64,000 nt of DNA from a virus, in IMG/VR virus record IMGVR_UViG_3300007539_000009, positions 1-64,000 of that record; one strand, 5' to 3'. This document shows positions 36,292 to 62,887 of this stretch, piece by piece (the stretch's first letter is position 1; each line of letters starts with the position of its first letter). The notes under the pieces were generated by a model. The model searched no databases and had not been told where the DNA came from. It saw only the letters and a program-made list of their open reading frames with translations. Position numbers and translations under genes: made by a program.

Positions 36292-36675
36292 TCAATACAG
36301 ATGGGAGTCTGACTTTGCGGCTGTATAGCCTTCTGCTACGCGCTGCTTGCCGTAGCGCTTAGCCCGACTGCGATCCTTGACTTCGTCGTGAACGTACTCT
36401 GCCTTGTGCGACGGCAGGAAGCCTTTGGCTCGCTTCTTTCTGTATCGATCGTGCTTCACCTGCACCTCACCCGGGCTGACTATACCTCTAGGGTCGTAGC
36501 CGTGCGCCACCAGCTCGCGCTCAAAGCCACGAGCCATTGTGCGGTCCTGCACCCGCTCAGAGTACGTGGTCGACTTCTTCCTACCTAAGCCAGGGAAGAT
36601 CGATCGACGCTCGGTCGTAAGCTCAGCGGCGATCTTGTAAAGCTCGTCGCAGTAAGCAGCACCGAGGTCCATCAC
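36292..36675 (-). CDS. Small basic virion-operon protein with CDELYKIA N-terminus, 127 aa
   Basis: No family recognised. The first 20 residues (MMDLGAAYCDELYKIAAEL) carry the recurrent D-E-L-x-K-I-A peptide; the remainder is hydrophilic and strongly basic (KKRAKGFLPSHKAEYVHDEVKDRSRAKRYGKQR). It is the last gene of the late operon, overlapping the tube-like gene by 4 nt. The shape suits a DNA- or RNA-binding protein packaged in the head, which is inference. Confidence 0.6.
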   Translation of the reverse strand: MMDLGAAYCDELYKIAAELTTERRSIFPGLGRKKSTTYSERVQDRTMARGFERELVAHGYDPRGIVSPGEVQVKHDRYRKKRAKGFLPSHKAEYVHDEVKDRSRAKRYGKQRVAEGYTAAKSDSHLY

Positions 36676-37421
36676 GCGCCAGCTGAGTTGGTCGACAGCT
36701 GAATCGGGGCAATGCGGTCGAACTGCCCTGAGACGTTTTCAGTCATCACAACAGTCGAAGCATCGACCATCATGTTGTGTGTCTCAATATAGCAGTCCTC
36801 AAGGTACATAGCGCCGTACGGCCGGTCACGCGTGTCCTTGAACACTAGTGCCATACCGAACGGAACATTGAACAGCTCCGAGGTCAGGTTGGTGAAGAAG
36901 TCACGGTTCTGAACCTCAGTCGTTGATCCGCCCCAACCCGGTGCCACATCAAGCACTTTGTCTGGGAAGAGCTCGTTGTACGTCTCCAAGTAGGAGATCG
37001 GCTGCCCCTGCTCGTCAGGATCGATGAGCAACTCAGTACCGAACTCACCCAGTTTCTGGCCAGGGCCGATCGGAGCGAGCGCGTAGAGCAGACGCATCAA
37101 GCTCGGGCCGTAGAACAGGAAGCGCGAGACCGTGAAGTTCGCGAACATCCGTCCGGGCACCAAGTAGCTGCGCTTAGAGCCAATCTCGAACAGACGGCTG
37201 AGCTGCCTGTTCTGCGCGACCTGAATGCCTTGCAGCAGCCCAATCGGGATCAGCGAGTTGGTAGCGGTGAACCCCACTGCCGTGGGGTCGCCGGGTGTGA
37301 GCATGTCCAGACGAGCCGGACCGGCAAGCACCAGCGTCGACTCAGACGACACATACTCGCCGTTCTTGATCTCTGTCTGGACGTGCTCGTTAGTCCAGTT
37401 CCAGTTGAGGTAGCTCGTCAT
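36672..37421 (-). CDS. Probable tail tube protein, 249 aa
   Basis: Located close downstream of the sheath gene, where contractile phages encode the tube. Beta-rich, with RLFEIGSKRSYLVPGRMFANFTVSRFLFYG and an end segment DCYIETHNMMVDASTVVMTENVSGQFDRI that resembles the 'symmetry strand and insertion loop' style of tube proteins. Length is near the usual range (about 140-250). No E/D-x-K-x-A motif is visible, as for other tail components. The assignment depends on position and style, not on a diagnostic motif. Confidence 0.5.
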   Translation of the reverse strand: MTSYLNWNWTNEHVQTEIKNGEYVSSESTLVLAGPARLDMLTPGDPTAVGFTATNSLIPIGLLQGIQVAQNRQLSRLFEIGSKRSYLVPGRMFANFTVSRFLFYGPSLMRLLYALAPIGPGQKLGEFGTELLIDPDEQGQPISYLETYNELFPDKVLDVAPGWGGSTTEVQNRDFFTNLTSELFNVPFGMALVFKDTRDRPYGAMYLEDCYIETHNMMVDASTVVMTENVSGQFDRIAPIQLSTNSAGA

Positions 37422-37439
37422 TGGATGATGTTGTTTCTT

Positions 37440-37721
37440 TTAGGACTTGCGCCGGCCACGAGCCGAGCGCTGCTTGTCTCGCTCTCTTTTGTGCGCAGCA
37501 GCCGCTCCGACGCCTGAGCCAGCCACAACACCTACTGGTCCTGCGAGCGCGCCGCCAGCGAGGGAGCCGGCGAGGGAGCCGGCAGCAGACCGCCAACGAC
37601 TACCGTGCTCTGCACCGATAGCAGCGCCGATCGGCCCAAGCAGCGCTCCACCAGCACCAGCTGCTCCTGCGCCTGCAATCTTGGCCAGTTCGTCAACAAA
37701 TCCGAGAACGGTTGAGGTCAT
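37440..37721 (-). CDS. Glycine-zipper small protein with DELAKIA N-terminus, 93 aa
   Basis: MTSTVLGFVDELAKIAGAGAAGAGG opens the protein; the middle 60 residues are Gly/Ala-rich with GxxxG-type spacing (AAGSLAGSLAGGALAGPVGVVAGSG), able to insert into a membrane; the end is basic (RERDKQRSARGRRKS). It begins at the sheath stop. Similar architecture occurs in the 42323 and 47242 proteins. Possibly an ejected or membrane-active internal protein. Confidence 0.6.
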   Translation of the reverse strand: MTSTVLGFVDELAKIAGAGAAGAGGALLGPIGAAIGAEHGSRWRSAAGSLAGSLAGGALAGPVGVVAGSGVGAAAAHKRERDKQRSARGRRKS

Positions 37722-40700
37722 CAGATGAAGATGAAGATGGTGCCTTGCGAGGCGGAGAAGAAAGGTTCGACCTGGTACTCCATGATGAAGCCGTCCGGCT
37801 GATCCGGGTCGTCTTCGATCTTGTTGAGTTTGATCGACTTGATGTGCTTCTGCTCGAGGATCGAGTTTCGCACGCCTTGCTGGATGCCTGAGAGAACGTC
37901 GTAGAAGCCCTCGTCTCGGATGTAGGTACCGAGGATCGGGCGAATCGCCGCGCGCAGCAGTCGAGCGAAGTTGTCGATCTGCGTGGTTACTGCGTCCTCG
38001 TAGAACTCCACAGCCGTGGTGTCCGTAGTCAGAGCGCGGATGGCGCTGACCGTAGCTCCTTCGCCGCCAGGCTGCTGCATGTAGTAGTTGCCGGCGTTGA
38101 TGATGACGTCCTGGTCGTCAGCGCTGCCCGAGAACGGGTCGATGATCGACTGGATACCAGAGCCGGCAACCTTCGTCAGCGGCCGTGCAGGGCCGTACTC
38201 AGCGCGCTTGGCTGCTTCGATCGCGCAGGCGTACTGCATGCCCGCCTGGTAGTCCACGACGTCCTCATTCACCGTTCCGTAGAACCCGGTGGTGTCTGTG
38301 AACGTCAGCAGGCAGCGAGACGGGAAGATGTTGCGGACACGCCGCTCACTGATCGCATCGGTGTAGGCTGCGATCGAATCACGGAACTCCGTGGTCGATA
38401 GCAGCTTTGACTTGATCGTGTAGGCCGTCACAGTCAGGTCTGTCACGCCCTTGGCAATATTCCCGTCGGGAATCATTGTCAGAGTCGTAGTAGAGCCAAC
38501 TACGTTGACGACTGTGATTCGACCGGAGAAGTCGATCAGTGTCGTGCCATCGAAGGCTGTGCCTGAGAACTCATCACCGACGATGATGTCGTCTACGGCG
38601 GTAAGGTCACGCTGGACTGTGACTGTCTGGACGCCGCCCGGATCAGTGCGGCTGATCATCGGAGCGTCACCCGACTGCAGCGAGGACTTGTCCTCCTGCG
38701 TGACGTGCCACTTCGACTGGTACAGGATCCGCTCCCGCTTGTTGACGGGCAGCGACTGTGTCAGTACATGCGTCTGAGCTGCAGACAGCACCAGGTCGTC
38801 TTGGGTCAGCGGGACGATCGAGTAGACCGCATCGCTGGCCGCTGCCGCAAAGGCCGTGTTCCAGGCTGTGACGTTGTTGTCGCCGACCTGCAGGCAGTAC
38901 ACCTCTGTGTTGGTGTTCTGCGTGGCAAGCTGCGCGGCTAGCGCCAGCGGGTTGTCCGGAACCGGATCCCCCAGAAGCGACTGGTAGGTGCTGGCCGTGA
39001 CCCGGATGAACGTGTCTGTCGACGTGTTCAAGATCTCGGCGTAGCTCAGCTTGACCGTGCCTTCGAGGCTGGCACCAGACAGTGTCTTCTCAACTGTGTA
39101 GTTGAGGGAGCTCGCTGCATCGGCGCTACCCACAAGGAGGATGTCGTCACCAAGCACATCCGGGCTTGCGGCGATGTCTACTGCCGTCTGGAAGTAGATT
39201 GCACCCTTGACCGTCTGAGTGTCCGGCACGTTGTTCGGGCTGGTCGAGAGCTGCGTAATCTCGAGCGTCGAGTCGTTAACTACGCGCTTGACCGTGAAGT
39301 CAGCCCGCAGCGGGCGACGAACGCTGAACCCGATGTCTTCGATCGTCTCGTTCGACTGGAGAACGATGCCCTTGTTCGGGTGATCTTTGACCGTAAGCTG
39401 CGTAGCGCTGTCTTGCGTGATGACCACGAACAGCAAAACACCCGCGTCGCTAAACACGAGGTCACCCGCTGCGACGCCGTCGGCGCCGAAATCAGTGGAG
39501 CCGTTAGCGGTAAGTACGCGCTCCCCGCTGACGTTCTCCGCGCCGATGTCCGCTGTGTCCCCAGTCAGGGGCGAACCCGGGTTGCAGATTACGTAGTCGA
39601 CGTTAGATGCCGACAGCGTGTCCGAGTACATCTCGCCGAACTCGCGGACGACCAGCGTGTTGTCTGTGCCCGGCGAATGCCCGGACGGGCTCGGGCTAGT
39701 CAGGTTGCCGGCATTTGTGATCTCGAACACCGGGCGATAGATACCGTCAGTGTCCTTGATGAGGATGTGGTCGCCGACCTCTACTGTGCCGGGGAAGCCG
39801 GTGATAGCGGTGTCGATGAAGTTTCGAAGACCAGCTGCGTCAGCTGCCGAGAACGAACCTGTGGTGCCGCTCGCGCCTGCGCGCGGCGCGTAGGTGTACG
39901 CGCGGAAGGCTACGCCTTCGTTCGGGTCCGCATCTACGTAGTCAGGCAGGTCGCCACTGGCAAAGTCCTGAACTATGTGCTGGTCAGTAGCCGCAGTCTC
40001 GTCAGAGACTGTGTAGAACACCGGGCGATACTCAGCGTTCTCGTTCTGCGTGAAGAAGATCGTGCCAGTGAACGCAGCGTTGTCCCAGACTGTGACGGTG
40101 GTGCCGGCAGAGGGCAACGTCACAACACGCTGGTTACTGGCAACAGCGATTGCAGGGCTGCTGAGCAGTGACCCCTCGCTCTGCCCGACCTGGTCGAACT
40201 CAAGGCCGATGCCCTGGCTTCGGATGCTCCAGTGGTCGAGGAACAGGACGTCACCTTGCTTGACGCCCGTACCCGTCGAACCGAAGCCGCCGGCTGTGTT
40301 GAATGCTGTACTGGTGCTGCGAAGCGTGCGGATGCCGTTCGCATCCTCAGGCTCGACCAGGATCTTGGCTGCCTCGACTGCGCCGATAGTGCTCGGCCCT
40401 TTGTCTAGGCGGGTGACCAACAGCTGGTCGTCACTGATCAGGCCGCCGCTGGCAACCTTGTACGTAGACACGCCGTTGACCTTGATGATGTCTCCATCAC
40501 CTACTTGGTCAATGACGAAGTCAGCCGACGAATCAGTAAAGCTGCTCTCTGTCGGCGTATCGGTATCAACGGCGAACACACCGGCGGTACCTGATGCGAT
40601 CTCGAAGGTCGCGCTGGCGCCAGCAGCAATGGAGAAGTTCGGTGTGGTTGCCGACTCATCCAGGTTGGCGAAAGACACACCAGTCGTGATCTCCGCTGTG

Positions 40701-40975
40701 CCTAGGGTCGGGTGCGTGACGAAGATCGCGGGCTGCAGCAGAGCAGGTGACGCGGTCTCGTTCTCTACAACACCACCCTGCCAGTTGGCGAAGTCAACTG
40801 CAGTCAGCGGCGTGCCGGCGTTGTAGTCGCCTGCTCCCGCGTCGATCTGGTAGTTGAGGCTGCGGTTCAGACCAATCAGCAGAACCGGCAGGTTGGTTGC
40901 CGGCGGGGTACCACTGATCGTGGTGAACTGCTGAAAGATCTTCAGTCCAGGACGAAGATTAGATGAGCTGGCCAT
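37721..40975 (-). CDS. Tail sheath protein, 1084 aa
   Basis: The contractile sheath subunit. N-terminus LRPGLKIFQQFTTISGTPPATNLPVLLIG is typical of sheath proteins, as is the C-terminal core: QIDNFARLLRAAIRPILGTYIRDEGFYDVLSGIQQGVRNSI followed by a final strand pair (GFIMEYQVEPFF, GTIFIFI). At 1084 residues it is far longer than T4 gp18 (659) or most others, with several beta-rich inserted domains between about 100 and 650 that probably face outward. Its presence shows a myovirus morphology. Confidence 0.8.
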   Translation of the reverse strand: MASSSNLRPGLKIFQQFTTISGTPPATNLPVLLIGLNRSLNYQIDAGAGDYNAGTPLTAVDFANWQGGVVENETASPALLQPAIFVTHPTLGTAEITTGVSFANLDESATTPNFSIAAGASATFEIASGTAGVFAVDTDTPTESSFTDSSADFVIDQVGDGDIIKVNGVSTYKVASGGLISDDQLLVTRLDKGPSTIGAVEAAKILVEPEDANGIRTLRSTSTAFNTAGGFGSTGTGVKQGDVLFLDHWSIRSQGIGLEFDQVGQSEGSLLSSPAIAVASNQRVVTLPSAGTTVTVWDNAAFTGTIFFTQNENAEYRPVFYTVSDETAATDQHIVQDFASGDLPDYVDADPNEGVAFRAYTYAPRAGASGTTGSFSAADAAGLRNFIDTAITGFPGTVEVGDHILIKDTDGIYRPVFEITNAGNLTSPSPSGHSPGTDNTLVVREFGEMYSDTLSASNVDYVICNPGSPLTGDTADIGAENVSGERVLTANGSTDFGADGVAAGDLVFSDAGVLLFVVITQDSATQLTVKDHPNKGIVLQSNETIEDIGFSVRRPLRADFTVKRVVNDSTLEITQLSTSPNNVPDTQTVKGAIYFQTAVDIAASPDVLGDDILLVGSADAASSLNYTVEKTLSGASLEGTVKLSYAEILNTSTDTFIRVTASTYQSLLGDPVPDNPLALAAQLATQNTNTEVYCLQVGDNNVTAWNTAFAAAASDAVYSIVPLTQDDLVLSAAQTHVLTQSLPVNKRERILYQSKWHVTQEDKSSLQSGDAPMISRTDPGGVQTVTVQRDLTAVDDIIVGDEFSGTAFDGTTLIDFSGRITVVNVVGSTTTLTMIPDGNIAKGVTDLTVTAYTIKSKLLSTTEFRDSIAAYTDAISERRVRNIFPSRCLLTFTDTTGFYGTVNEDVVDYQAGMQYACAIEAAKRAEYGPARPLTKVAGSGIQSIIDPFSGSADDQDVIINAGNYYMQQPGGEGATVSAIRALTTDTTAVEFYEDAVTTQIDNFARLLRAAIRPILGTYIRDEGFYDVLSGIQQGVRNSILEQKHIKSIKLNKIEDDPDQPDGFIMEYQVEPFFSASQGTIFIFI

Positions 40976-40981
40976 GTCAGA

Positions 40982-41788
40982 TCAGGGTGAGGTGCCGTAC
41001 CACTGGTCGAGGAGGTCTTCCGGAGACCCGTTGATGATGCTTGTAGGTGCTGCTTTCACGCACCCAAGGCCGTCTCCGGCCGGTTCCGGGTAGCCACTTC
41101 CCGACAAGTTGCTGATGCCTGCTGCTGTGGCGTACGTGGCAGTGGTTGACTTGACCCAGTTAAGGGTTTGGTGCACCACTAGCGTAATCGGCGCCACAAA
41201 CAGATCGTGCTGAGAGTCCGCACGCACAGACCGTGCTTCGCCGATGATCGGGCTGTCGATCTTGTGGATCCGAGACCCGTCTCGAATCTCCTTTTCATGG
41301 AAGCGGATGAAAGACCCCGCAAGCCACGCCAGGAGCTCGGCGTTCAGATCGTTGCGTGCGTAGCAGTTGATGCTGATGGGAACAGTCGTGTTGTCCTGGA
41401 ACTCAGCCTTTGACCGACCGGTCGTTCCGAAGACCCGCTGACCGGTAGAACCAACGGTGGTTCGGGGAACAGCGCCCCCGAACCCTTTGCCGTTGATCGC
41501 CAAGTCATTGAACGAGAACGTGCCCCGACTGAGGATGATCGCCGGGCGGCCATCTGTCTTGAACACTTCACTGCTGAACGAGTCAGCGATGACGAGCTTG
41601 CTGTCATCGCTGATCTCGTTGCTAGGTGTCAGAACAAGACGGAAGGGGTTCGGCCGCGCGGCGAACTCAGGGAACGTCTCTTGCTGAAAAACGTCTCGGA
41701 ACACCTCGAGCAGAATCCGCCGAGGGTAAGTCAGCGGATTGTGTACAGCGGGATCTGCCGTCCCGAAGCTCGGGGTTCCGTCAGCCAT
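40982..41788 (-). CDS. Putative neck/tail-terminator structural protein, 268 aa
   Basis: Directly upstream of the sheath gene (6 nt gap). Contains TYPRRILLEVFRDVFQQETF near the start, a beta-rich central domain, and ISINCYARNDLNAELLAWLAGSFIRFHEK, a pattern seen in phage tail-completion or head-tail joining proteins that bind the end of tail tube. I cannot name the family. No motif E/D-x-K-x-A is visible. Confidence 0.4.
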   Translation of the reverse strand: MADGTPSFGTADPAVHNPLTYPRRILLEVFRDVFQQETFPEFAARPNPFRLVLTPSNEISDDSKLVIADSFSSEVFKTDGRPAIILSRGTFSFNDLAINGKGFGGAVPRTTVGSTGQRVFGTTGRSKAEFQDNTTVPISINCYARNDLNAELLAWLAGSFIRFHEKEIRDGSRIHKIDSPIIGEARSVRADSQHDLFVAPITLVVHQTLNWVKSTTATYATAAGISNLSGSGYPEPAGDGLGCVKAAPTSIINGSPEDLLDQWYGTSP

Positions 41789-42326
41789 TCTGTCGGCGAG
41801 ACGCCAAGTACCCGATGCCGCCTGCTACGCCAAGGCCAGCAAGAACCGGATTCCGCCGGACTGCGCTCATGAGCTTGCTGCTGCCCACACCGGACCCGCC
41901 GGACCCGCCGCCGCGACCAGCGCGGACCTTATCTAGACGTGCTTGACGAGTAGCAGCGGCTGCGTCGCCTGCGGCGCGAGCAGACCCGGCGGTGCCCGGG
42001 TTTTTCATCGCGCGCTGCATGACTTCGTTGCCCCATATCGTCGGATTCTTGGCAGCGACTTTCTCAACGTACGCCTGCATGGCGTTGTCGAGCTCGGCAG
42101 CACGCTTCTCAAAGACCTCTTCGACACCTGCGAGGAATGCCGGGTGCTCGATCAGCTGGTTCAGCTGGAAATCCGTGATTGCGGCGATCTTCTCGACCTC
42201 CGGCTCGGGCTGCGGCTCCTCAACTACAGGGGCAGCCGGCTCCATCTCCGCGAAGAGCGCGGCTGTCTTCGTGTTGTGGCCCAGGATGTCACTGAGCTCA
42301 GTGATTAGCGTGTGTTCAGCGTTCAT
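41781..42326 (-). CDS. Helical virion-operon protein with repeated K-x-A motifs, 181 aa
   Basis: Contains TKTAALFAE, VEKIAAITD, FEKRAAELD and VEKVAAKNP within the first 100 residues, a dense set of the motif common to head proteins here. The last 70 residues are Gly/Ser/Arg-rich with a short hydrophobic stretch (RRNPVLAGLGVAGGIGYLASRR). Function unknown; likely an internal or scaffold-associated protein. Confidence 0.6.
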   Translation of the reverse strand: MNAEHTLITELSDILGHNTKTAALFAEMEPAAPVVEEPQPEPEVEKIAAITDFQLNQLIEHPAFLAGVEEVFEKRAAELDNAMQAYVEKVAAKNPTIWGNEVMQRAMKNPGTAGSARAAGDAAAATRQARLDKVRAGRGGGSGGSGVGSSKLMSAVRRNPVLAGLGVAGGIGYLASRRQNG

Positions 42327-42895
42327 GATTTGCGACGAAGTCTGTTGTTCAGCCGGGACTCTTCCCAGCGACTTGCCCCTCTGTGAACAGCGTAGAGTCC
42401 TGCTCCTGACGCTGCACCTTTAGAGACGCCCCGTAAGGCAGCCTGGCCGACGGCTTTACGGCCGGCACCAGACGCGGACATAGCGCCTATAGCCGCCCCA
42501 GCCAGGGCACCGGCAGAGGCAGCATTAATTCCGGGCCGGGGATTTCCGGCTTTTCGAGCTCGGTATTGAGCGTAGCCCAGCCCAGCTCCAACACCCACAG
42601 CAGCTGACGCAGGCAAGGTCCGAGCTACTGCTTGAATCTGCTTGGCGGTCCTCAGGTTTGCAGGCGTCGTGCGGGCTACCTGCTTGGCAGTGCGGGCAGC
42701 CAAAGCCGCGTGGGCAGCACCGCTAGCAACCAAGCCCACCATGCCTGCACGCCCTCTTGGCTTAGCTGACGCTTTTGCCGCCTGAAACTCTTTGACGGCC
42801 TCCCACTCAGGGTCTAGCCGTCTGGGTTTCGTGCCTGCGGCGTCTGCGAGCTTGTCTAGCTCGTCTAGGAGATCACTGACTGACTTGCTTGTCAT
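42323..42895 (-). CDS. Gly/Ala-rich basic protein with LDELDKLA N-terminus, 190 aa
   Basis: MTSKSVSDLLDELDKLADAAG opens; a basic region (KASAKPRGRAG) and long Ala/Gly-rich stretches follow (ASGAAHAALAARTAKQVA, AASAGALAGAAIGAMSASGAG), then a basic end (NNRLRRKS). Same design as 37440 and 47242. ATGA-type overlaps on both sides place it in the late operon. It may be an ejected pilot-type or DNA-condensing protein. Confidence 0.6.
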   Translation of the reverse strand: MTSKSVSDLLDELDKLADAAGTKPRRLDPEWEAVKEFQAAKASAKPRGRAGMVGLVASGAAHAALAARTAKQVARTTPANLRTAKQIQAVARTLPASAAVGVGAGLGYAQYRARKAGNPRPGINAASAGALAGAAIGAMSASGAGRKAVGQAALRGVSKGAASGAGLYAVHRGASRWEESRLNNRLRRKS

Positions 42896-45800
42896 CAGAA
42901 GTCCACACTCAGGATGCCCAGGTTAGGTGACCCCGCGCTGGGTGCGTTAGCGAAGGTAGTCTTCCCTGGCACCGCTCGGATCAGAATAGGGTTGAGTGTG
43001 CTCAGGTCCGGCACTTCAAGAGTCGTCTCGATGTCTGACGGATTGATCCGAGTCAACGAGAATGATTGGTTTACCAGCACTCTCTTGTACTCAGCTGGAG
43101 TGATACCACCAACTCGATACCAACCACCTTGGTTAGTCTCGTGGATCAAGTCGCGAGGACGCAGCAACGGATAGTTAGCCATCATTGCGCGTGTCACCGT
43201 ATCCTGCCGAGTGATGTCTCCAGGCGTGTTCTGCTTGGACTCCGGATCAATGACAGCAAGTGTGGCAATGGGCTCGTAATACCCTTCGGTGTATCCGGTG
43301 CCAAAGCACATCGGACAATCCGGGTCGCTGCTCTTTTGCATGACTGCATCCCAGCAGCTGCAGCGGTCTTCTGCGAACCGACGCTGGAACACCAGCACAG
43401 GCGATCCGCCTTGGCGGACAAGAACCTGGCTAGCGCGCATGGCGTTGATGGCAGGTCCCGTGATGTCCCCATCAAGCCGCACCGGGTCGTACGCCGGTAA
43501 CGCTGAGTTGTTGACTACCAGCTGCAGTCGGTAGAATGGCCGGCGCCACAGGTCACTGACGTTGACCGTGCTATCGAGATAGAACTGATTCAGCGCGGGT
43601 ACGAGGTCGATCTGCTCGTACGTCCCGTTTTCGGAGTACGCACGATCAATCCGGACCTGAGCAGTGTTCGGGTTCTCGTTGCCTACAGTCCACAGGTTCC
43701 ACCCAATCAACTGGGACTGGGCGTCCTGCTGGTAGACACAGATGTTGTCGAGGCGCATGCGAGTAGGGGGTGCTCCCGTAATAGATTGTACGACGGTCAG
43801 CTCGGCGGCCTGACCAGTCACGCTGTACGCCCGGTCTCCGATGAAGAAGTAGTAGAAGATGCCCCCAGATGCAGGGCGCAGCTGGAAGTTGACTGCCTGA
43901 GGGAAAGAGGGGGTGTCGGGGAACTGATTGCCCAGGCTGTCCACGCCTGTGGCATTGAAGACCACTGTGCCCGCTCCCAGGTATGCCTCTCGAGCTAGTT
44001 CGGCGCTTTGACCGGCCACCAACAAGGCCGAGGACTCTGCTATGAGGAACAAGGCTCGGGCGTAACGAAGATCGGCCACTTGTCCGTCTACGTAGTAGTT
44101 GGCTGTTTCAGCAGTCAGGCGCAGCTGCCTGCTAAGCGCCGCGTCTTGCCCGGCAGCAGTAAACAGCCCTTCGTCTGCAACCAAGATCTCGCCGACAGGG
44201 AACAGGGCGTCTTGGCCAGCCACAACGTAGGTGCCTAGCTCAGCCTCGAGCGACACCGCCTTGGCCACCGTCGCGTCCTGACCCGTCACAACAAATGTTC
44301 CGGTGTCGTTAACTACTGTCAGACGAAAAAGACCGGGCTGTCCCGTGACAACAAAGGTTGCAGTGTCAGCGACAAACACTTCTCCCAGCAAGAACAGAGC
44401 GTCCTGGCCCGAGACAGCGAAGCTAGCGGGGCTGGCTCCCAACTGGGCTGCGCGGCGGAGATCAGCACCTTGTCCTGTAAGCGTGAATGTCGCGACCTCA
44501 GCCGCAAGCGATTCGTCATTGAGGAACGCCGCCTCAAATCCAGTCAGCGTGAATGTTGCTTGCTCGGCCAGCAGCCCAAAGCCGAACAGTATCGGTTGCC
44601 CTGCTACTGTGTACGTTGACTGATCAGCAGCAAGCAGCAGCCCTCGTGACAGCGCCGCGTCTTGACCAGTGAGCGCAAACGTCGTTTGCTCTGCGGTGAA
44701 GAGCAGTGCTCGTAGGAAGCCTGCGTCTTGCCCAGTAAGGGCAAAGGACCCGACCTCGGCTATGAGCGATACACCAACAGCCAGCGCTGCGTCCTGGCCC
44801 GTGACGACGTAGGTGCCTAGGTCAGCTGTCAGCCTGCGGACCACCGACAACGTGGCGTCTTGGCCTGATAGCGCAAAGACACCTACTTCGGCAATGAACA
44901 AGTCGTCGAACAGCAGGCCGGCGTCCTGGCCGGTGAACGTGTAGCTGGCCTGATCGGCCGTAAGCAGCGCTGCGCGCGTAAGTACAGCAGCCTGACCTTC
45001 AACCGCAAAGGCCGCCTGCTCCGCAACTATGCGCAGTGCGAGGTCAAAAGCTGTGTCTTGACCAGTAAGCGTGTAGCTCTGCTGCTCAGCTACAAGTTCA
45101 AAACTAGCAGCAAGCCCAGCGTCTTGGCCGCTGAGTGTGAACGTAGCCTGCTCTGCAGTCAGCGACAGGCCGAGGATGAAGTCTGTGTCTTGGCCGGCCA
45201 GGCTGTAAGACGCCTGAGCTGCGTCTATGACCCGTGCTGCTGCTAAGTCGGCTTGTTGCCCGCTAACAGTGAACGACGCGTCATTGCTGACAAGAACTGC
45301 GTCACGTGTCAGCGCAGCGTCTTGTCCAGCGAGCACAAACGTTGCTTGATCAGCAGCAAGCGTCACTCCCCGGTTGAGCGCCGCATCTTGCCCGGTCAGC
45401 GCGTAGCTCTGCTGCTGGGCGAGCAGCGCACGTTCCGCAGTCAGCGCTGCATCCTGGCCGGACAGCGTGAAACTTCCACTGTCAGCGACAACGGAAAGTC
45501 CTCTAGCAAAGGCAAGGTCTTGGCCGACTAGGGAGAACGTTCCCTCGTCCGCTAGCAGGGTCAGCCCACGATTGAGCGCAGCGTCTTGGCCAGTAAGTGT
45601 GTACGTCTGCTGATCAGCAGTAAGTGTCAGTCCTCTAGCAAACGCTGTGTCCTGGCCAGTAAGTGTGTACGTCTGCTGATCAGCAGTAAGCGTAAAAGCG
45701 CCTACACCGGGAGGCGAGTACGTGAACCCGCTGAAGTCAATGACTTGGTAGCGGATCTCCGAGTCTTGTCCGGACCGGATGCGCCGAAATTGCACTGCCG

Positions 45801-46752: not shown

Positions 46753-46757
46753 GGGCT

Positions 46758-46807
46758 CTAAACGAACGTGGGCGCGGCACCACCGTTAGGTAGCAGCCAC
46801 GCCCACG
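46758..46807 (-). terminator. Intrinsic terminator inside the late operon
   Basis: On the minus strand CGTGGGCGTGGC pairs with GCCGCGCCCACG (one wobble) around a 17-nt loop, followed by TTCGTTT. It lies between the 46826 gene and the giant repeat protein and should reduce expression of the downstream tail genes unless antiterminated. Confidence 0.7.
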
Positions 46808-46825
46808 ACTTTGCAGCAGCAGCGA

Positions 46826-52447: not shown

Positions 52448-52454
52448 GGTTGGT

Positions 52455-53828
52455 TCAGATTGCGGTTGCCAGGAATGGCATCCAGTTGGGAACCGAGCTC
52501 GATGCTCGGGGTACAGTGAAAGCTGCGTCTACGCCGTTTCGCTGCAACGCGAAGCGGATGATCGGGTCTCTCTCCTGTAGCGCAGCAAACTTCTCCAAGT
52601 CTATCTGACGCAGCAGGTTACGGTACCGATCGTGCCCGTAGGCAGACGCAGTTTTTACTAGGGCGAAATGAGAGAGCTGGCTCGCGGTGCGCCTGGTGAA
52701 GTACGGATCGAACATCGACCGCTTCTCCAGATGCGGCTCCAAAGCCATTACCAGTGTGCGGTTAGGAGAAGCCAGCGGCAACGGATCTGAGATTTGAGTC
52801 TCTCCAGCCACTTTCTCGTACTCGTCATTCGTCAGATAGATCCCTAACGACACGCAAGCGCGCAGGGCTTCCTGTGCTCCAGCGTTGGCCAGTTTCTCGA
52901 GTACACCGGCCGGGAGCGGCTTAATGTATGTGAGGTCCTGGTGGGCTGACTTTTTCACGAAGTCGACCAGGCGGGGGTCGGTATCCGACTTCTTGGCAGG
53001 AACTGACTTAGCCACAGGCTCCATCGGCATGTCCTTCCGTATCTCGGACTTCTTGGACAGCGAAGCGCTGGCTACTTTGCGGATCGACCACGCGCTGCGA
53101 TCGGCCGGTGTGAGCACCCGGGAGATATCGAAGAAGCGCGGGAAATCGTTGTACGCGTAAACACGGCGACCATCAGGGAGCATCCTCCCCAGCCAGTTTT
53201 TTAGGTGGTCGCAGTAGTCGGCGCGCTGCTTAGCCGGGTTGCCGCAGATGCTGCAACGGTCGTAAGGCAGCTTAGCGCCCATTGACCACGGGACCGGTGT
53301 ACCGTCGTCAATCATCTTGACGACGTCAGGCGCGTGCTTTGTGCGGACGAACACAATCAGCTCGACCCGCTTCATCTTGTCGTTGTATGCGCTGGCGATC
53401 ACATCGCCGATCGACTTCGCAGGGTCTTTGTTCTCGTGGAACTTGTAGACGTGCGCGTAACGCGGGAACGTGTGCTCGCCGTACGCTTCTTTGGGCGGGA
53501 TGACGATGTTCGGGTACTTCTTCCGAACGCGATCATTGATGTAGCGTGCGATGTCGCTAGGCGGATCCATAGCCTTGAGGCTCCACTCCGGGAATGCGTC
53601 CCCGTTGCGGTTATGGCCCCAAGTCTCGCACGCACCTAACGCGTTCAACAGGACGTAGCGCCCGTCTTGGCGCGGCTTCAGCTGCTCAGCTACACGCAGT
53701 AGCGACTCAGGTGTTGAGTCAGCAGATGCGATCTTGTCGAACGTCGAGCCGTGCACAAGGCTGTAGTCAGGGCCCCAATCGTGGTAGCCGCCTACATCGA
53801 ACGTCTTGCCTGAGGTTGCGAAGCTCAC
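52455..53828 (-). CDS. Prohead maturation protease with C-terminal extension, 457 aa
   Basis: Residues 60-230 follow the phage prohead serine-protease pattern: HNRNGDAFPEWSL, GEHTFPRYAHVYKFHENKDPAKSIGDVIASAYN (candidate catalytic His in the AHVYKFHENKD region), VELIVFVRTKHAPDVVKMI, then PWSMGAKL with the candidate nucleophile Ser, followed by CSICGNPA...YCDHL, a zinc-like cluster often found in this protease type. The C-terminal 220 residues carry seven K-x-A motifs (IRKVASA, LEKLANA, YEKVAGE, LEKFAAL and others) and may be a self-cleaved scaffold extension. It sits upstream of scaffold-like and capsid genes. Confidence 0.7.
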   Translation of the reverse strand: MSFATSGKTFDVGGYHDWGPDYSLVHGSTFDKIASADSTPESLLRVAEQLKPRQDGRYVLLNALGACETWGHNRNGDAFPEWSLKAMDPPSDIARYINDRVRKKYPNIVIPPKEAYGEHTFPRYAHVYKFHENKDPAKSIGDVIASAYNDKMKRVELIVFVRTKHAPDVVKMIDDGTPVPWSMGAKLPYDRCSICGNPAKQRADYCDHLKNWLGRMLPDGRRVYAYNDFPRFFDISRVLTPADRSAWSIRKVASASLSKKSEIRKDMPMEPVAKSVPAKKSDTDPRLVDFVKKSAHQDLTYIKPLPAGVLEKLANAGAQEALRACVSLGIYLTNDEYEKVAGETQISDPLPLASPNRTLVMALEPHLEKRSMFDPYFTRRTASQLSHFALVKTASAYGHDRYRNLLRQIDLEKFAALQERDPIIRFALQRNGVDAAFTVPRASSSVPNWMPFLATAI

Positions 53829-54160
53829 TTTTTGTTGCGCTCTTTCATCCTACGCCTGTGCGAACTGTAAGCGCGCACAATGTCCTCGTTAGCACGTAGT
53901 AGTGACCCAATAGCCTTCCCTCGGCTCGACCCGAGCTTGCTGAGCTCGTCAGCGAACCCGCAGAGCATTGCGTACTTAGCCGGCCCTTCTACGCCTCGAT
54001 AGTTGCGGTGCTTGCGAGAGTGCTTGCGCTGGTAGCTTTCTCGATTCTCGAGATGACCGGTTTGCGGGCCTGCTCGACGAGTATCTGATTCGTCTTGCTG
54101 ACGATAGACGGGAGGAGCACCGCCCGGGTCGGTGATGGCGGTGTACTGATACTCGGCCAT
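53825..54160 (-). CDS. Small basic protein with internal FADELSKLG, 111 aa
   Basis: A polar first half (many Gln/Arg/His) is followed by AMLCGFADELSKLGSSRGKA at about residue 65 and a basic end (SSHRRRMKERNKK). The internal Met before CGFADEL could be the true start, giving a 44-residue protein that begins like the other DELxKIA proteins. Overlaps on both sides are 1-4 nt. Function unknown. Confidence 0.5.
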   Translation of the reverse strand: MAEYQYTAITDPGGAPPVYRQQDESDTRRAGPQTGHLENRESYQRKHSRKHRNYRGVEGPAKYAMLCGFADELSKLGSSRGKAIGSLLRANEDIVRAYSSHRRRMKERNKK

Positions 54161-54870
54161 CAGTTCTTCTTGCGGCCCGCGAAGCCCTCCATCGCCTTGC
54201 TCGACAGGCTGGCCACTGACTTACCGAGCTCAGGCAACCTCGCGGTGCTCTCATCACGGTAGGACCCGTAATCACGTTGCAGACTGAGCAGGTCCTTGAC
54301 GCGCGTAGTTGTCAGTGCGCGGGGACCGAAGGTCTGCATATCCCGCATCACGTTGCCCGCCAGCAGCGGATCCGCCGCTACATCAGGAGCGAAGTTCTTG
54401 ATGATTCGGAAGTAATGGTGGGCGTTGGGATCGTCGCGCAGCGTTGGGTTCTCGTGGACGATCTGCTTGACGGACTCGTTAATCTGCCGCCCACGCTGGC
54501 GCTTACGGATGCTGGCGCTGATAGCAGGCGTTGCTGCCAGAGCAAGGCCCGCACCCGCACCTACAAACTTGATCGCGTTCGCAATGTTCGTCGGGTTCCT
54601 GAGCGCCGGCAGCAGCGTGCTAGCTGCGCCAGTCTTCTCAAGCCGGTCGCAGTCGTCTGCCAACTCCTGGCAGAAGCCTAGGAAGCTCTCTGCGTAATCC
54701 GGATCCTCGATCTGCTGCGCAGCTTCTTTGACCAGGTCGACAACAGCCTCACTGTCATCTTCGCTGATCGCGCGCGCCAGCTTTACGCCGAAGTCTGACA
54801 CATCTGCCCGCTGATCGCGAGAGAGGTGCGTGCCGTAGAGGCAGGCAAACTCAGTGAATACTCCGCTCAT
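54160..54870 (-). CDS. Helical virion-operon protein with hydrophobic segment, 236 aa
   Basis: N-terminal acidic helices (residues 1-85), then NIANAIKFVGAGAGLALAATPAISASIRKRQRG, a hydrophobic segment followed by basic residues that could span a membrane, then a polar C-terminal half (SSKAMEGFAGRKKN). Located between terminase and protease. Perhaps an internal core or ejection protein; not recognised. Confidence 0.55.
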   Translation of the reverse strand: MSGVFTEFACLYGTHLSRDQRADVSDFGVKLARAISEDDSEAVVDLVKEAAQQIEDPDYAESFLGFCQELADDCDRLEKTGAASTLLPALRNPTNIANAIKFVGAGAGLALAATPAISASIRKRQRGRQINESVKQIVHENPTLRDDPNAHHYFRIIKNFAPDVAADPLLAGNVMRDMQTFGPRALTTTRVKDLLSLQRDYGSYRDESTARLPELGKSVASLSSKAMEGFAGRKKN

Positions 54871-56033
54871 TTGCTCTTATGCGCCGCCGGCGTTGCTTTG
54901 CTTTGGTGGGTACCGGGGATGTAGTCACGCGTCAGCTGACCGAACCCCCGTGTGATTGCTTTGTCTGCACCGGAGCTCAGTACGTCTTTTAGTGACGTAG
55001 GCTTGTAGCCCTTCATCACAGAATCGACACCGCTTTGAGATGCAGCTGTCTTTGTTATTGCCGCGTCGATTACAGCTGCAAACCCATCGGTTGTGGCTGT
55101 GCGAGCATCTAGCGACTCTGCGAACTTCTGAACTTGCGGCTCAGCGGTTTCGTTGTCCATGATCACTTGCTGGATGTCACGAACAGTGCTGCTCAGGTTG
55201 TCGACCTCGGTTTTCCAATCGTTGAGGTTCTCCGAGAGGTCCATCTTGCGCTTGACCTCGGTCAGCGTGCCGTAGAGCGCCGCCCGACCGTTGATGACTG
55301 TCACGTCCGGCCCACCAAGACGACCGCCTGAGCGATCGAAGTCGTCGACGGCGGCAAGCTCAGTGGCGTCAGCCAGGGCGACGTTAGTGGGGTGCGCATG
55401 CTTACGCATCTCGTTCTGAACCGCCTGGAAGATCGGGGTCCAGCGGCCGGGGCTGTCCGGGGTCAAGCACTGAGCGTATTTGTGCATGTCGGCCAGCCGC
55501 CCACGCGCTGAGTAGACGTACTCAGTGGCGAGCTTCATCAGCTCAGTCATGTCCTCGCGGAAGTCCTGAGCTAGACCGATGGAGCGCGCATTGATCATAC
55601 GCCCGTAGTTGTCAGCGCGAGATGCGACCTTCTCCAGGTGGATCAGGGCTGCGCGCTTCTCGGCCTCGTACAGCTCCTTAGACTTCGGATCAATCCGGTC
55701 CAGGTCGCGGTCGAGGGTCGAGCCCCGCCCAGTGATGAACGAAGAGGCGACCTTACGGATCTCCTGTACGGACACCCCTTTGTCCTGCGGGCCGAGCAGC
55801 TCGAGGACGGCATCTGTAGATGCCAGGTCAAACTCCTGGCCGCCCTTGGCTGCCACCTTGCGGAGCCCGTCACTGGTGGCGTGATTGGCGGCTGTCACCA
55901 GCGAGCCGATCTCCAAGCGCGTCAGACCCTTGTCCTGGGCGATCTTGGCGATTGACTCATTGAGGCTAGCGCCGTCACGGACGTAGGTCCGCGCAGCGTC
56001 TTGAGCCAGCAACTGAATCTCGATGTTTTTCAT
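54867..56033 (-). CDS. Helical internal-virion-type protein with ten K-x-A motifs, 388 aa
   Basis: Predominantly helical, no known domain. K-x-A sites occur at residues 30 (IAKIAQ), 59, 94, 126, 135 (LEKVAS), 167, 185, 211, 303 and 328, far more than expected by chance. Residues 73-84 (TDAVLELLGPQD) are encoded by the 38-bp segment copied at 35080. In this position other phages place the portal, but I see no portal features; a core or internal protein is more likely. The start ATG 56033 has no strong Shine-Dalgarno. Confidence 0.6.
   Translation of the reverse strand: MKNIEIQLLAQDAARTYVRDGASLNESIAKIAQDKGLTRLEIGSLVTAANHATSDGLRKVAAKGGQEFDLASTDAVLELLGPQDKGVSVQEIRKVASSFITGRGSTLDRDLDRIDPKSKELYEAEKRAALIHLEKVASRADNYGRMINARSIGLAQDFREDMTELMKLATEYVYSARGRLADMHKYAQCLTPDSPGRWTPIFQAVQNEMRKHAHPTNVALADATELAAVDDFDRSGGRLGGPDVTVINGRAALYGTLTEVKRKMDLSENLNDWKTEVDNLSSTVRDIQQVIMDNETAEPQVQKFAESLDARTATTDGFAAVIDAAITKTAASQSGVDSVMKGYKPTSLKDVLSSGADKAITRGFGQLTRDYIPGTHQSKATPAAHKSK
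55780..55817. repeat. 38-bp segment duplicated at 35080-35117
   Basis: Within the 54867-56033 gene. It matches 35080-35117 at 37 of 38 bases in the same orientation. Here it is coding (TDAVLELLGPQD), so this is the likely source copy. Confidence 0.85.
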
Positions 56034-56094
56034 GGGTGAGCAGGGCCGCTAAAATCGCCCTCATACCAATCGTAGGCGCCCTGGCGGGCAAGAG

Positions 56095-58942: not shown

Positions 58943-58945
58943 GGC

Positions 58946-60628
58946 TTACCCGCTGTAAGTAATGTTCTTCAGTTCCGTCAGGTCGCGGATAACAGCGTCT
59001 AGTGCAAACAGCGCTGTACGGATCGGAGACGAGTCAACCTCAAGGCCAACGCGTGCTGCAATCAGTAACTGAGCAACGGCGCGACGAGCGTCTCGCATCG
59101 TGTCCAGCGACTCCACGAACTTCAGGACGTTTTGCTCGTTCAAGAAGTTGAGGCTGAGCACTGCGTCTACTGTGCGTCGGCTCAGCTCTTCTGCGCTTTC
59201 AGCACACTTGATGAGCTGCTGGCGCTCAGCTTGGTAGATAGCCTGCTCAACCAGAGCTGCCGTTTTCCAGAGAGCTGCCTTCTCTTCGTTCGAGAGAACC
59301 GGCATGCCTTCGATCGGCTTAACCTCCGGAGCGGGCAGCTCTACGTAGCTGACTACGCCATCAGCCATCAGCCGGCTAGCGGCCTCTTTTGCGAAGGCAT
59401 CTTCATACGTCCGTCCGAGGTAGTCAGCCAACTCACGCAGTCTGACTGTCTCACCGTCAGGCATGCGGGCGTAGCCGCCTACCTTTGTGATCGTTTGGGC
59501 TGCCGGCACGTCGCTGGTTGTGGGCTGGTAGTCCACAGGCTGTGCCTTGTCTGCGAGCTTCAAGAAGATCCAGTCGTCGTTCAGCAGGATGGTGTCCACA
59601 TCCCCTTCAACACGCTGGAACGGTTGCTCGCTAGCAGTCTTGCGGAACTTGATTGACTTATCGCCACGCAGTTCAGCGATGTAGTCATTGCCGGCGGAAC
59701 CGCGAATGTTCACGGGCTCGGTGACGATGGTGTCCGCCGATTTGACGAACACAAAGACGCCGGTACCGCTCCAGTCGTCCTCCTCAAGCTCCGGCACGCC
59801 GTCGTACGCAGAGCCCCACAGGGGACGATCAGTAAACGCGGCAGTTTTGTCGAGGCCCACAAACGCCTGGACACCTTCACGCAGGTCGTCCAAGTCGAAG
59901 TAGTAGACGTTGTGCGCTACGAAGCCGGCTCGCTCACCATCAGCGGTAGCGACCTTGTATATGCCCGGTTCCTGGATCAGCTGAGCAGGGTTGACCTCTA
60001 CATCGACTACGGCTGCTGCTGCTCGCGTGTCTTCAACGACAGGCTCAGTGGCGTTTGCTGCGTACTTGCGCAGCACGTCCTCGAAAGCGCGGCTGGTCGT
60101 CAGACCCCACTCCAGCTGGTTCGGCTTGAGGTACGCCATAGCCTGCTTGACTTGATCGTCAGCGTAGCTAAGCGATGCGTAAGCGTACTTGCCGTCAAAC
60201 GGAGGCAACGTGAGATACGCAATCGATGCGTCGGACGACTCACCTGAACGGCCCGGCTTCACCGGCTCCCCGATCGGGTCGTCACGCTGCAGCGCTTCCT
60301 CCAGCGCAGGACGTGTGAGCGGCAGCACGTCCTCTTTGCTAATGAACACGTCTAGCGGTGCTAGGCGGCAATCAGAGATCACGACAGGGATGATTACCTT
60401 GTCGTCAATGTTGATCGCACCGACACCGTGCCCACTATCAGAGTCCGTCTTGTTCATGCGGACGTTGATGTGGTAGTCGGCCAAGTACGGCTGCGTTTGG
60501 TGCAGCACGTCCATGACCTCCTCAGGCCAGTTCTTTGAGTCACGTGACAGCCGTGAGGATGCCGACTTCTCGAAGTCGCCGAAGCTCGGGGCCTCAGCAA
60601 ACAGCGCTTGTCCCCGGAGCTTAGGCAT
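58946..60628 (-). CDS. Conserved phage virion protein of unknown function, 560 aa
   Basis: Contains NWPEEVMDVLHQTQPYLADYHINVRMNKTDSDSGHGVGAINI and IPVVISDCRLAPLDVFI, a pattern I associate with an uncharacterised structural protein in large environmental phages. The middle is beta-rich with an SH3-like look; the C-terminal 150 residues are helical. Motifs: DFEKSASS near residue 20, LRKYAAN, LDKTAAF, FRKTASE, FAKEAAS and LWKTAAL. These suggest the head. No portal gene is otherwise visible, and I cannot exclude that this is a highly diverged one. Confidence 0.55.
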   Translation of the reverse strand: MPKLRGQALFAEAPSFGDFEKSASSRLSRDSKNWPEEVMDVLHQTQPYLADYHINVRMNKTDSDSGHGVGAINIDDKVIIPVVISDCRLAPLDVFISKEDVLPLTRPALEEALQRDDPIGEPVKPGRSGESSDASIAYLTLPPFDGKYAYASLSYADDQVKQAMAYLKPNQLEWGLTTSRAFEDVLRKYAANATEPVVEDTRAAAAVVDVEVNPAQLIQEPGIYKVATADGERAGFVAHNVYYFDLDDLREGVQAFVGLDKTAAFTDRPLWGSAYDGVPELEEDDWSGTGVFVFVKSADTIVTEPVNIRGSAGNDYIAELRGDKSIKFRKTASEQPFQRVEGDVDTILLNDDWIFLKLADKAQPVDYQPTTSDVPAAQTITKVGGYARMPDGETVRLRELADYLGRTYEDAFAKEAASRLMADGVVSYVELPAPEVKPIEGMPVLSNEEKAALWKTAALVEQAIYQAERQQLIKCAESAEELSRRTVDAVLSLNFLNEQNVLKFVESLDTMRDARRAVAQLLIAARVGLEVDSSPIRTALFALDAVIRDLTELKNITYSG

Positions 60629-60980: not shown

Positions 60981-60998
60981 AGCTGCTTAGACCCATTA

Positions 60999-62435
60999 TC
61001 AGGTCATCGGGACACTTGTGGGACCGCTCGGACCTTCGGGCGTCGGGTGAATGTGTGCGTTGTAGCTGGTGCGGATCTCGACCAGGTCCCCCAAGGCGTC
61101 CGCCACCAAGCCGGCAGCTGTGACATTTCCTTGGGCGGTCACATTCCCTTGAATGTTCATGTTGCCCTGCAGCTCGACGTCGCCAGTCACGTCTACTCCA
61201 TTCTGGGAAACTACAACTGTCCTGTTGACAGTGACTTCCAGCCCTTCGTCAGTCAACCGGAAGAACTGAGACCCGCGCTCTACCCGTGTGCCTTGGGAGT
61301 CAATGACCAGCTGATGCGGGGTGCCTGACCCCGTCTCCTGGATCTTGAGCTCGCCGGAGTCCGAGTTGAACGTGATGTCGAACTTGTCACCAACCTTGAA
61401 GTGGACGCCGGCTGAAACAGGCCCGCCAACAGCATCCTGCACCCCTCCAGGGGTGTTGGGGTTCGAAAAGTCCGTGCTGGGGTGCGGCGCATTCTCTGCG
61501 GCCAACTCCCCCATTTCCAGGCTCAGCAGCTGCTCTCCAGCCTGCTGCTGCATCCGGTAGGTGTTGGTCTCGTTGTCGATCTCCTCGACGCGATGGCCAC
61601 CCCACAGCCGGCGGCGCCCTCGAGCAACGATCGGGAGGCTGCCCAGCCCCGCTACATCATCGACAATCACCAGAGGCACGAATCCGGTGAACTCCCGCAG
61701 GTCTACGTCTTGCGCAAGACTCTGAGCCCGAAGCAGGTTCAAGTGCGTCACCCGCCCCTGTGTCGCCCCGGAGGCAGTGACCGTGGTGTGGGTGTCCGTC
61801 CACCCTGCAGACTCAAACGACCAGTCCCGACACGACGCTTGGATGCGGTTTCCCTGGGAGTGCATCAGGAAGTAGGTGCGGCGGGACTTCGGTTGGAGCA
61901 AGATGTCTCCGAAGTCGTAGACCCGCACTAACGCACGCTCCTGGTTGAGCCGCGCACGGTTCTGCATGATCGCGTCACCGGGGAAGATCGCCGACTCAGC
62001 GATGCCGCGCTGGTCTATTCGTCGGAAGCTGATCTGCTGACCTGTGCGGTTGAGGAGGTCACCTTCGAGGTTGGTTGCAGAGTCAGCAAGCTGCTCTTCG
62101 ATGGTGTTGGCCTCTGTGCCTGTATTGGCAGAGATGACATCAAGCTCACCGATCACTACCCAATCAGCACCTACGAAGTGAGCAGTGATTACGCGCGTAC
62201 CTTGCGAGTACGGCCGTTCTGCGCCTTGCCGCATAGCGGAGCAGAGACGATCCCCGATACGGTCGATCGTGACGTTGTAAACCCGTGTCTTCGGGTTGTA
62301 GCCACGAATCACACCAGCAAACATCTGGTGCGACCGGTTCACCCCTCGCGTTTGGTAGGCGTACAGCTGCTGACCCGCTGTGCTCAACACAGCAGGCTTA
62401 TTGCCTCCAAGTCCTGAAGGGTAGCCCGCGTCCAT
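60999..62435 (-). CDS. Baseplate spike protein (gpV/gp5-like), 478 aa
   Basis: N-terminal OB-like region (FAGVIRGYNPKTRVYNVTIDRIGD) with later beta-rich domains. The C-terminal 120 residues are a spike helix: repeated short strands (GVDVTGDVELQGNMNIQGNVTAQGNVTAAG) ending in SYNAHIHPTPEGPSGPTS, the HxH apex element that binds iron in P2 gpV-type spikes. This would form the trimeric needle that punctures the outer membrane or cell surface. It ends 18 nt before the 60980 gene start. Confidence 0.7.
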   Translation of the reverse strand: MDAGYPSGLGGNKPAVLSTAGQQLYAYQTRGVNRSHQMFAGVIRGYNPKTRVYNVTIDRIGDRLCSAMRQGAERPYSQGTRVITAHFVGADWVVIGELDVISANTGTEANTIEEQLADSATNLEGDLLNRTGQQISFRRIDQRGIAESAIFPGDAIMQNRARLNQERALVRVYDFGDILLQPKSRRTYFLMHSQGNRIQASCRDWSFESAGWTDTHTTVTASGATQGRVTHLNLLRAQSLAQDVDLREFTGFVPLVIVDDVAGLGSLPIVARGRRRLWGGHRVEEIDNETNTYRMQQQAGEQLLSLEMGELAAENAPHPSTDFSNPNTPGGVQDAVGGPVSAGVHFKVGDKFDITFNSDSGELKIQETGSGTPHQLVIDSQGTRVERGSQFFRLTDEGLEVTVNRTVVVSQNGVDVTGDVELQGNMNIQGNVTAQGNVTAAGLVADALGDLVEIRTSYNAHIHPTPEGPSGPTSVPMT

Positions 62436-62887
62436 CAGATCTGCTTGACGCTCTCCTTCAGCGACTCAATGATCTTCTCGCGAATCTCAGGACGCCGCGT
62501 CTCGATGATGCGAATCAGGCGCTGCACCCAGTCTTTGAGTGAGATCCTCAAGCCCTTTTGTTGAGGCAGGGCAATCGTCTTCTGCGCAAAGCGGCGAACG
62601 ATTTCGCGCTCCTCACCAGTGGCCGGAGCACCTTTGTAGTCGCGGCGGAACTGCTGTGCTTCCAAGTCTTGCCGACGGCCTGCGCGGTCGATCTCAGTCG
62701 TTGTGTACTGATGCTCAGCAATCTTGGCGAGCTCAGACACGTAGCTCTCCATAGCTCCTCGTTTCACAAATCCTCCTGGTATAGTTCGGCTCCCGGGCAG
62801 CACCGCACGATTGAATCCAGTTCCGGCCGTCAACTTGACGTTTGCCAGCTTTTCAAGTTGAGCCAAGAGTGCTTCGTATGCGTTCAT
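62435..62887 (-). CDS. Small protein with two copies of the start motif, 150 aa
   Basis: MNAYEALLAQLEKLANVK begins the protein and, after about 30 residues, MESYVSELAKIAEHQ repeats the same layout, including an in-frame Met. The C-terminal half is a basic, helical domain (LRISLKDWVQRLIRIIETRRPEIREKII). It overlaps both RNA polymerase beta-prime (ATGA) and the spike gene (TGATG). Function unknown. Confidence 0.55.
   Translation of the reverse strand: MNAYEALLAQLEKLANVKLTAGTGFNRAVLPGSRTIPGGFVKRGAMESYVSELAKIAEHQYTTTEIDRAGRRQDLEAQQFRRDYKGAPATGEEREIVRRFAQKTIALPQQKGLRISLKDWVQRLIRIIETRRPEIREKIIESLKESVKQI

Follow-up and report, generated by a model that had tools for sequence, protein, structure and literature searches.

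Why do so many unrelated proteins of one phage carry the same short peptide? The question is raised by positions 1-64,000 of the IMG/VR virus record IMGVR_UViG_3300007539_000009, which is 183,184 bases when complete. This whole stretch is called the window here. The original prediction, made from the sequence alone, listed more than ten near-identical peptides close to the starts of minus-strand proteins, and took them to be a protease site or a capsid-targeting signal. Each of these peptides is indeed present at its gene, among them VEKTASE (52040), FEKSASS (58946), LEKTAEV in the capsid protein and FDKIASA in the protease. The core that they share is Lys-x-Ala (K-x-A). This is very likely the site of a prohead protease of new specificity, joined in some proteins, the candidate cargo, to a capsid-targeting helix of the kind known from phage T4.

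Sequences and scans

Genes of the record were called with a codon-model caller, after which seven short or alternative open reading frames (ORFs) were added or replaced by hand. Gene starts are predictions. Expected motif counts come from shuffles that preserve composition. In a blind scan, all 400 a-x-b residue patterns were ranked by their excess over such shuffles. IMG/VR was searched with the protease and the capsid protein of the window, and each of the two matched at least 80 loci. For the clade statistics, near-duplicates were removed at 80% identity, and the relatedness of the remaining sequences is ignored.

K-x-A in head genes

In the phage's own head block, K-x-A ranks first of the 400 patterns (56 against 21.2 expected, z 7.7). 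With the middle residue restricted, the part from 36.3 to 84.7 kb holds 75 copies of K[ILVTSFMYQ]A, where 31.8 are expected (z 6.8). This excess is absent from the early replication block at 1-36 kb (16, with 20.1 expected) and from the other blocks, and K-x-A stays outside the top six patterns of every non-head set scanned. Corrected for composition, the replication genes hold 45 K-x-A where 42.3 are expected. The original prediction therefore survives the comparison that it had itself proposed.

Four isolates were found that match the capsid protein: Salmonella phage Arash and three Vibrio phages. The capsid protein and protease of Arash and of Vibrio phage D69 are about 30% identical to their counterparts in the window. 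K-x-A again ranks first in the head proteins of Arash (54 against 24.9 expected, z 6.7) and D69 (61 against 24.6, z 8.3), in the head end (first 25 kb) of Bacillus phage G (61 against 36.3, z 4.4), and over 72 IMG/VR loci taken together (2895 against 1388, z 38.9). Counted from the protease gene, the clade excess peaks at about two- to threefold at genes -3, -2, 0 and +1 to +3, and is weaker at +4, +5 and -8. Three contigs from bacterial metagenome-assembled genomes, which were outside the discovery set, also have the sites, both in the protease and in head proteins. The presence of the motif in relatives, which the original prediction suggested looking for, thus extends over Arash, D69 and the IMG/VR loci. 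It is kept where the remaining sequence has diverged past recognition. The group formed by these relatives is wide and almost unstudied.

Shape of the site

L-x-K is also ranked high in the head sets of the window phage, Arash, D69 and phage G. With both L-x-K and K-x-A among the top patterns, a combined form L-x-K-x-A suggests itself. The extended pattern [LMIF]xK[TVILQSMYF]A occurs 46 times in 36.2-86 kb, where 5.9 are expected, and 12 times elsewhere in the record, where 11.4 are expected.

Positions are given below relative to the putative cut, with the Ala at P1. The clade logo reads E/D at P7 and P6, L/F/M/I at P5, E at P4, K at P3, T/V/I at P2, A at P1 and S/E at P1'. The consensus first proposed, E/D-x-K-x-A, was right about the recurring K-x-A, but the core is [L/F/M/I]-x-K-x-A, and an acidic residue is merely preferred at P4, P6 and P7. 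The Ser/Glu preference after the Ala agrees with the proposed cut position just after EKTA.

Both residues and their order matter. Among clade head proteins, K-x-A is found at 2.48 times its expected number, compared to 0.83 for the reversed A-x-K, 0.93 for R-x-A, 0.72 for K-x-G and 0.74 for K-x-S.

As a positive control, the same blind scan was run on the head proteins of T4. There IxE took first place and LxE second, with K-x-A at rank 29. In phage SPN3US, AxE came at rank 6 and K-x-A at rank 110. The T4 control recovers the known specificity of its protease gp21, which supports reading K-x-A as the signal of a cutting site.

Protease and capsid protein

The features that carry this reading are the following, where a slash marks the putative cut:

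52455-53828, minus strand: predicted prohead (capsid-maturation) protease, 457 amino acids (aa), from phrog_18299 matches, invariant residues and model
53727-53735, minus strand: protease site 1, K32-I-A34/S35, predicted end of the N-terminal propeptide; invariant in 63 proteases, and disorder stops there
53070-53078, minus strand: protease site 2, K251-V-A253/S254, C-terminal edge of the core, from conservation and model
49041-50321, minus strand: major capsid protein, HK97 fold, 426 aa, from Foldseek and phrog_2522 (major head protein)
50232-50240, minus strand: capsid site K28-T-A30/E31, ahead of the N-arm, from clade conservation

The head maturation protease family phrog_18299 is matched by 40 of 63 clade members at E<=1e-5. 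H131 and S182-M183 are invariant across an alignment of 63 proteases; H131 and S182 are the candidate catalytic His and Ser. The AlphaFold2 model has an ordered core at about residues 35-256 (predicted local distance difference test, pLDDT, about 95-98), disordered stretches at 1-33 and 257-280, and a helical C-terminal extension. A profile search with the protease as query against PDB chains was uninformative, with no protease among the matches.

Just ahead of the predicted core, none of the 63 aligned proteases departs from K32 and A34. Over 76 protease matches, 74 have a K-x-A within the first 60 residues (22 expected). The T4 protease gp21 is reportedly blocked by its own N-terminal region and released by self-cutting (PMC9958956), with which site 1 agrees. 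The second site is invariant in the window phage, Arash and D69, and 59 of 73 clade proteases have a site of the LxKVAS type. In the model it lies at the end of the last strand, ahead of the disordered linker 257-280. The original prediction had counted seven sites in the protease extension. There are six from residue 251 on, and nine in the whole protease (2.9 expected), much of the excess being in the helical C-terminal part.

Foldseek places the capsid model closest to the capsid of phage D3 (E 1.1e-7), followed by HK97. Within the first 40 residues, Kx[AG] is present in 57/57 clade capsid proteins and KxA in 51/57, where 15 are expected. One subclade has lost the aligned K and has a K-x-A or K-x-G 10-12 residues upstream instead. 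This means that the motif is kept, and not the local sequence. K-x-A is depleted in the capsid body, which was considered as selection against cutting, but A-x-K, K-x-G and K-x-T are similarly depleted and the idea was rejected.

Scaffold-like and other multi-site proteins

A number of further proteins carry the site repeatedly:

54867-56033, minus strand: scaffold-like protein, 388 aa, ten K-x-A (3.3 expected)
58946-60628, minus strand: head-region protein, 560 aa, 13 K-x-A (3.0 expected), the first at 60560-60568
51503-52003, minus strand: acidic core or scaffold-like protein, 166 aa, five K-x-A (0.6 expected)
52040-52447, minus strand: core-like protein, 135 aa, three K-x-A, the first (VEKTA/S) at 52379-52387
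50905-51273, minus strand: head-block protein, 122 aa, three K-x-A
51276-51488, minus strand: small head-block protein, 70 aa, N-terminal LDELLKVA (51450-51458) and two further K-x-A
41781-42326, minus strand: 181-aa protein, four K-x-A (HNTKTA, VEKIA, FEKRA, VEKVA) and a glycine-rich C-terminal stretch

The ten sites earlier ascribed to the 388-aa protein are thus all there, and the "six or more" of the 560-aa protein turn out to be 13. The terminase, said to have none, has none. The 1084-aa protein, said to have few, has four (2.5 expected). Arash gp220, which is syntenic to the 388-aa protein, also has ten K-x-A, with no detectable sequence similarity between the two.

The N-terminal tag and candidate cargo

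Small proteins carry the motif in a different way. In 815 small non-head proteins of the relatives, residues 1-30 hold most of the K-x-A excess (252 against 145 expected), and beyond them the motif is near background. These N-terminal sites have Phe at P9 in 21% of cases (z 13), with Glu at P6, Leu or Met at P5 and Glu at P4. Internal sites of head proteins do not have the P9 Phe. We read the N-terminal form as a putative cutting core plus a docking face.

A cargo-type pattern was defined as [FYL]x[DEST][EGQ][LMIF]xKx[AG]. It occurs nine times in the genome, always in 36.2-86 kb, with 0.5 expected and at most three in any of 200 shuffles. The following genes of the window carry a signal of this type:

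36292-36672, minus strand: candidate packaged cargo, YCDELYKIA/A, site at 36628-36636
37440-37721, minus strand: candidate packaged cargo, FVDELAKIA/G, site at 37674-37682, then a glycine-zipper-like stretch
42323-42895, minus strand: candidate packaged cargo, LLDELDKLA/D, site at 42845-42853
47242-47778, minus strand: candidate packaged cargo, FIDELTKLA/A, site at 47734-47742
62435-62887, minus strand: candidate packaged cargo, LAQLEKLA (62843-62851) and YVSELAKIA (62717-62725)
53825-54160, minus strand: candidate cargo-type signal GFADELSKLG/S, a K-x-G variant internal to a 111-aa ORF

The proteins at 36292, 37440, 42323, 47242 and 62435 and the ORF at 53825 are candidates for packaging, and probably for injection. 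The gene at 62435-62887 may start at an internal Met just ahead of YVSELAKIA. A Pfam scan of the tagged small proteins gave no significant domain; the protein at 37440-37721 has a match to Gly-zipper_Omp below threshold (E 0.011). The motif had also been proposed as a mark of the head region. Head genes are enriched in it, but small cargo-type genes also sit among tail genes.

Comparison with known systems

The closest likeness is to T4 gp21 and the capsid-targeting sequences (CTS) of IPI, IPII, IPIII and Alt. In both cases the protease is encoded beside scaffold and capsid genes, and the motif has three residues of the a-x-b form. Core proteins have repeated sites, and unrelated internal proteins have an N-terminal peptide in common (PMC9026906, PMC7411985). 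Targeting residues lie upstream of cutting residues (PMC9026906); in IPIII, for example, residues 4 and 7 serve targeting and 8 and 10 processing (PMC9026906). Seen here as sequence are the sites in the protease itself, in the capsid protein and in the scaffold, as well as the short shared N-terminal tag. What differs is the residue that is cut after. T4 uses Glu in L/I-x-E, whereas the window motif has Ala at P1 and a longer preference from P7 to P1'. With K-x-A as the top pattern in the head proteins of the window phage, Arash, D69 and the clade, Glu at P1 is not found. The protease would thus be of the phage prohead-protease kind, but not a member of the T4 type. A profile search found no sequence similarity between it and the T4 protease.

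T4 and SPN3US proteases reportedly cut after Glu in motifs of the I/L-x-E and A-x-E type (PMC5694885). The SPN3US protease gp245 and those of phiKZ and 201phi2-1 resemble the proposed window system in removing propeptides from many head and ejection proteins and in cutting themselves (PMC10052503, PMC5694885), and gp245 also prefers Ser at P1' (PMC10052503). Unlike what is proposed for the window protease, all three cut after Glu (A-x-E and similar). Furthermore, gp245 is cut at its C-terminus only and keeps its N-terminus, whereas the window protease has sites at both edges of its core.

Ala at P1 is known from herpesvirus assemblin (S21). This is also a Ser/His capsid protease that releases itself from a scaffold extension, and it cuts after Ala (pseudorabies R-site YLQA/T; PMC4498786). 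The R-site has no Lys at P3, however, the virus is eukaryotic, sites are few, and no direct similarity was found. An assemblin fold is not among the 50 listed fold matches of the window protease.

A literature search aimed at such a motif, which included the SPN3US and T4 papers and left most subscription papers outside, returned no K-x-A prohead site.

Other explanations

The protease reading builds on direct observations of enrichment, position, conservation, residue and direction specificity, and fit to domain borders. Could these be had without any cutting? K-x-A might lie at the heart of a short amphipathic helix, with a groove in the scaffold, the capsid protein or the protease as its binding site. 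The scaffold copies would then provide multivalent binding and the N-terminal copies would recruit cargo, like encapsulin cargo peptides. Those peptides are short and portable, and send unrelated cargo into an HK97-fold shell. They are usually C-terminal, remain uncut and have a different sequence from the K-x-A tag. The spacing F(P9)-L(P5)-[V/I/T](P2)-A(P1) does match one helix face, cargo-type sites have the extra Phe, and the capsid site is within a predicted helix. However, in the model the two protease sites are outside helices, at a disorder edge and a strand end. Lys is strictly retained and R-x-A is not enriched, P2 favours Thr and Val and P1' favours Ser, and in the T4 control such a signal marks cutting sites. 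Docking without cutting is therefore unlikely.

Chance is even harder to defend. E, K, A and L abound in scaffold-like proteins, and the protease has a large share of its excess in the helical C-terminal part, so L-E-K-x-A could arise as a by-product of helical Lys/Ala/Glu-rich sequence. But against shuffles that keep composition, z is still 7.7 for the phage's own head block and 38.9 over the clade, reversed A-x-K is below expectation, and orthologous proteases do not vary at K32 and A34. The last two tests refute a composition artefact, which retains next to no credence. Scarcely more probable is it that the N-terminal peptides are functionless remnants of duplicated genes. Several cargo-type N-termini within one genome are nearly identical, as such an origin would have it, but the Pfam scan showed no common domain among the protein bodies, ten K-x-A occur in the 388-aa protein and again in its syntenic partner from Arash with no detectable similarity between the two, and the site shifts within the capsid N-terminus and yet persists.

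Some results weigh against the protease reading itself. In the AlphaFold2 model of the capsid protein, the site is inside the predicted helix 24-44, and cutting it would require local unfolding. The top PDB match in the fold search of the protease, T4 gp21 (5jbl), is weak (E 0.14, probability 0.57). In addition, the Arash virion proteome has the K-x-A-rich proteins gp220-gp223 as detected, with high stated coverage (PMC10585845), which makes a full loss of the scaffold look unlikely. These coverage values are doubtful in turn, as many proteins are at 100% with two unique peptides (PMC10585845).

Proposed mechanism and meaning

For the protease reading, proteolysis and packaging are both strongly supported by the sequence patterns, from which we infer cleavage, the exact bond, docking and ejection. 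The protease half of the original guess is backed by a motif that is invariant before the protease core, present at the far edge of that core in most relatives and placed before the capsid N-arm, with many copies in scaffold-like proteins and none in terminase. The capsid-targeting half is backed by cargo-type copies that are found at N-termini only and have an extra Phe.

The phage's own protease (52455-53828) would recognise [L/F/M/I]-E-K-[T/V/I]-A and cut after the Ala, preferably at A/S or A/E. It would free its core by self-cutting at A34/S35 and A253/S254, and trim some 30 residues off the capsid protein at A30/E31. Scaffold-like core proteins would be cut at many sites and leave the head before DNA packaging. 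In cargo, the site within the first 10-30 residues would be part of an amphipathic F-x-[D/E]-E-[L/M]-x-K-[I/V/L]-A, acting as a removable capsid-targeting peptide, as in the internal proteins of T4. This peptide would dock in the prohead core, the protease would then remove it, and the body would be retained in the head, probably to enter the host with the DNA.

It is on balance probable that a whole clade of large tailed phages, of which four sequenced isolates were found, has a capsid protease whose K-x-A/S specificity is new, and that F-x-x-E-[L/M]-x-K-x-A serves these phages as a portable N-terminal tag by which many unrelated proteins reach the head, to be injected. If true, the tag lets the injected protein repertoire of the clade be read from sequence. 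Glu is the residue after which the T4- and phiKZ-type proteases, whose propeptide systems are well mapped, make their cuts. Beside them, a conserved Lys-x-Ala site would be a sign of wide divergence in what capsid proteases recognise, its Ala at P1 being shared with herpesviruses. Scaffold parts, the ends of mature capsid proteins and probable injected proteins could also be picked out by a simple rule, in genomes where most head genes lack a known function. The conserved site further points to a tag with which foreign proteins might be brought into the heads of such phages. With T4 as its check, the blind a-x-b scan may also give the protease specificity of other phage groups when nothing but genomes is at hand.

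Further observations

Two candidate extensions were rejected. Mycobacterium phage Tonenili (Bxz1-like), which has a distant protease homologue, has no K-x-A excess. Arash gp95-gp100, structural proteins from the early region, have K-x-A counts that composition explains.

In phage G, gp19 (16840-17742) is a distant protease homologue with LVKTA/A ahead of its core. The head-end genes of the same phage have the K-x-A excess, its capsid protein gp27 none. The three clade contigs outside the discovery set were binned in genomes labelled Candidatus Dependentiae, Deltaproteobacteria and Candidatus Bilophila, which may be hosts or may reflect mis-binning.

The most enriched a-x-b pattern in the 134 other proteins of the record, outside 36-84 kb, is F-x-D (149 against 99 expected, z 5.5).

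The virion RNA polymerases of the relatives start with a related peptide: MPKSASEL in Arash gp206 (40093-44670 of the Arash stretch examined) and MPKKASDL in D69 (4924-9507 of the D69 stretch examined). Both thus have K-x-A/S in their first six residues. Arash has separate RNA polymerase subunits, which rank among the most detected proteins of its virion (PMC10585845). The window phage has one fused RNA polymerase ORF of 2388 aa, beta (Rpb2) followed by beta-prime (Rpb1), at 62884-63951 of the window and on to 70050 of the record; it has no such start.

Three tagged proteins, at 37440-37721, 41781-42326 and 47242-47778, have glycine/alanine-rich membrane-like stretches that would suit pore or ejection proteins; their Pfam matches stay below threshold. 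A Lys-rich protein of 409 aa at 84769-85998 of the record has DUF6321 as its C-terminal domain and, internally, a MLRGFEDELQKIA tag that directly follows a K-T-A site. Finally, the 1285-aa protein at 42895-46752 of the window contains many degenerate LTADQQTYTLTGQDAAL-type repeats and is probably a tail or fibre protein.

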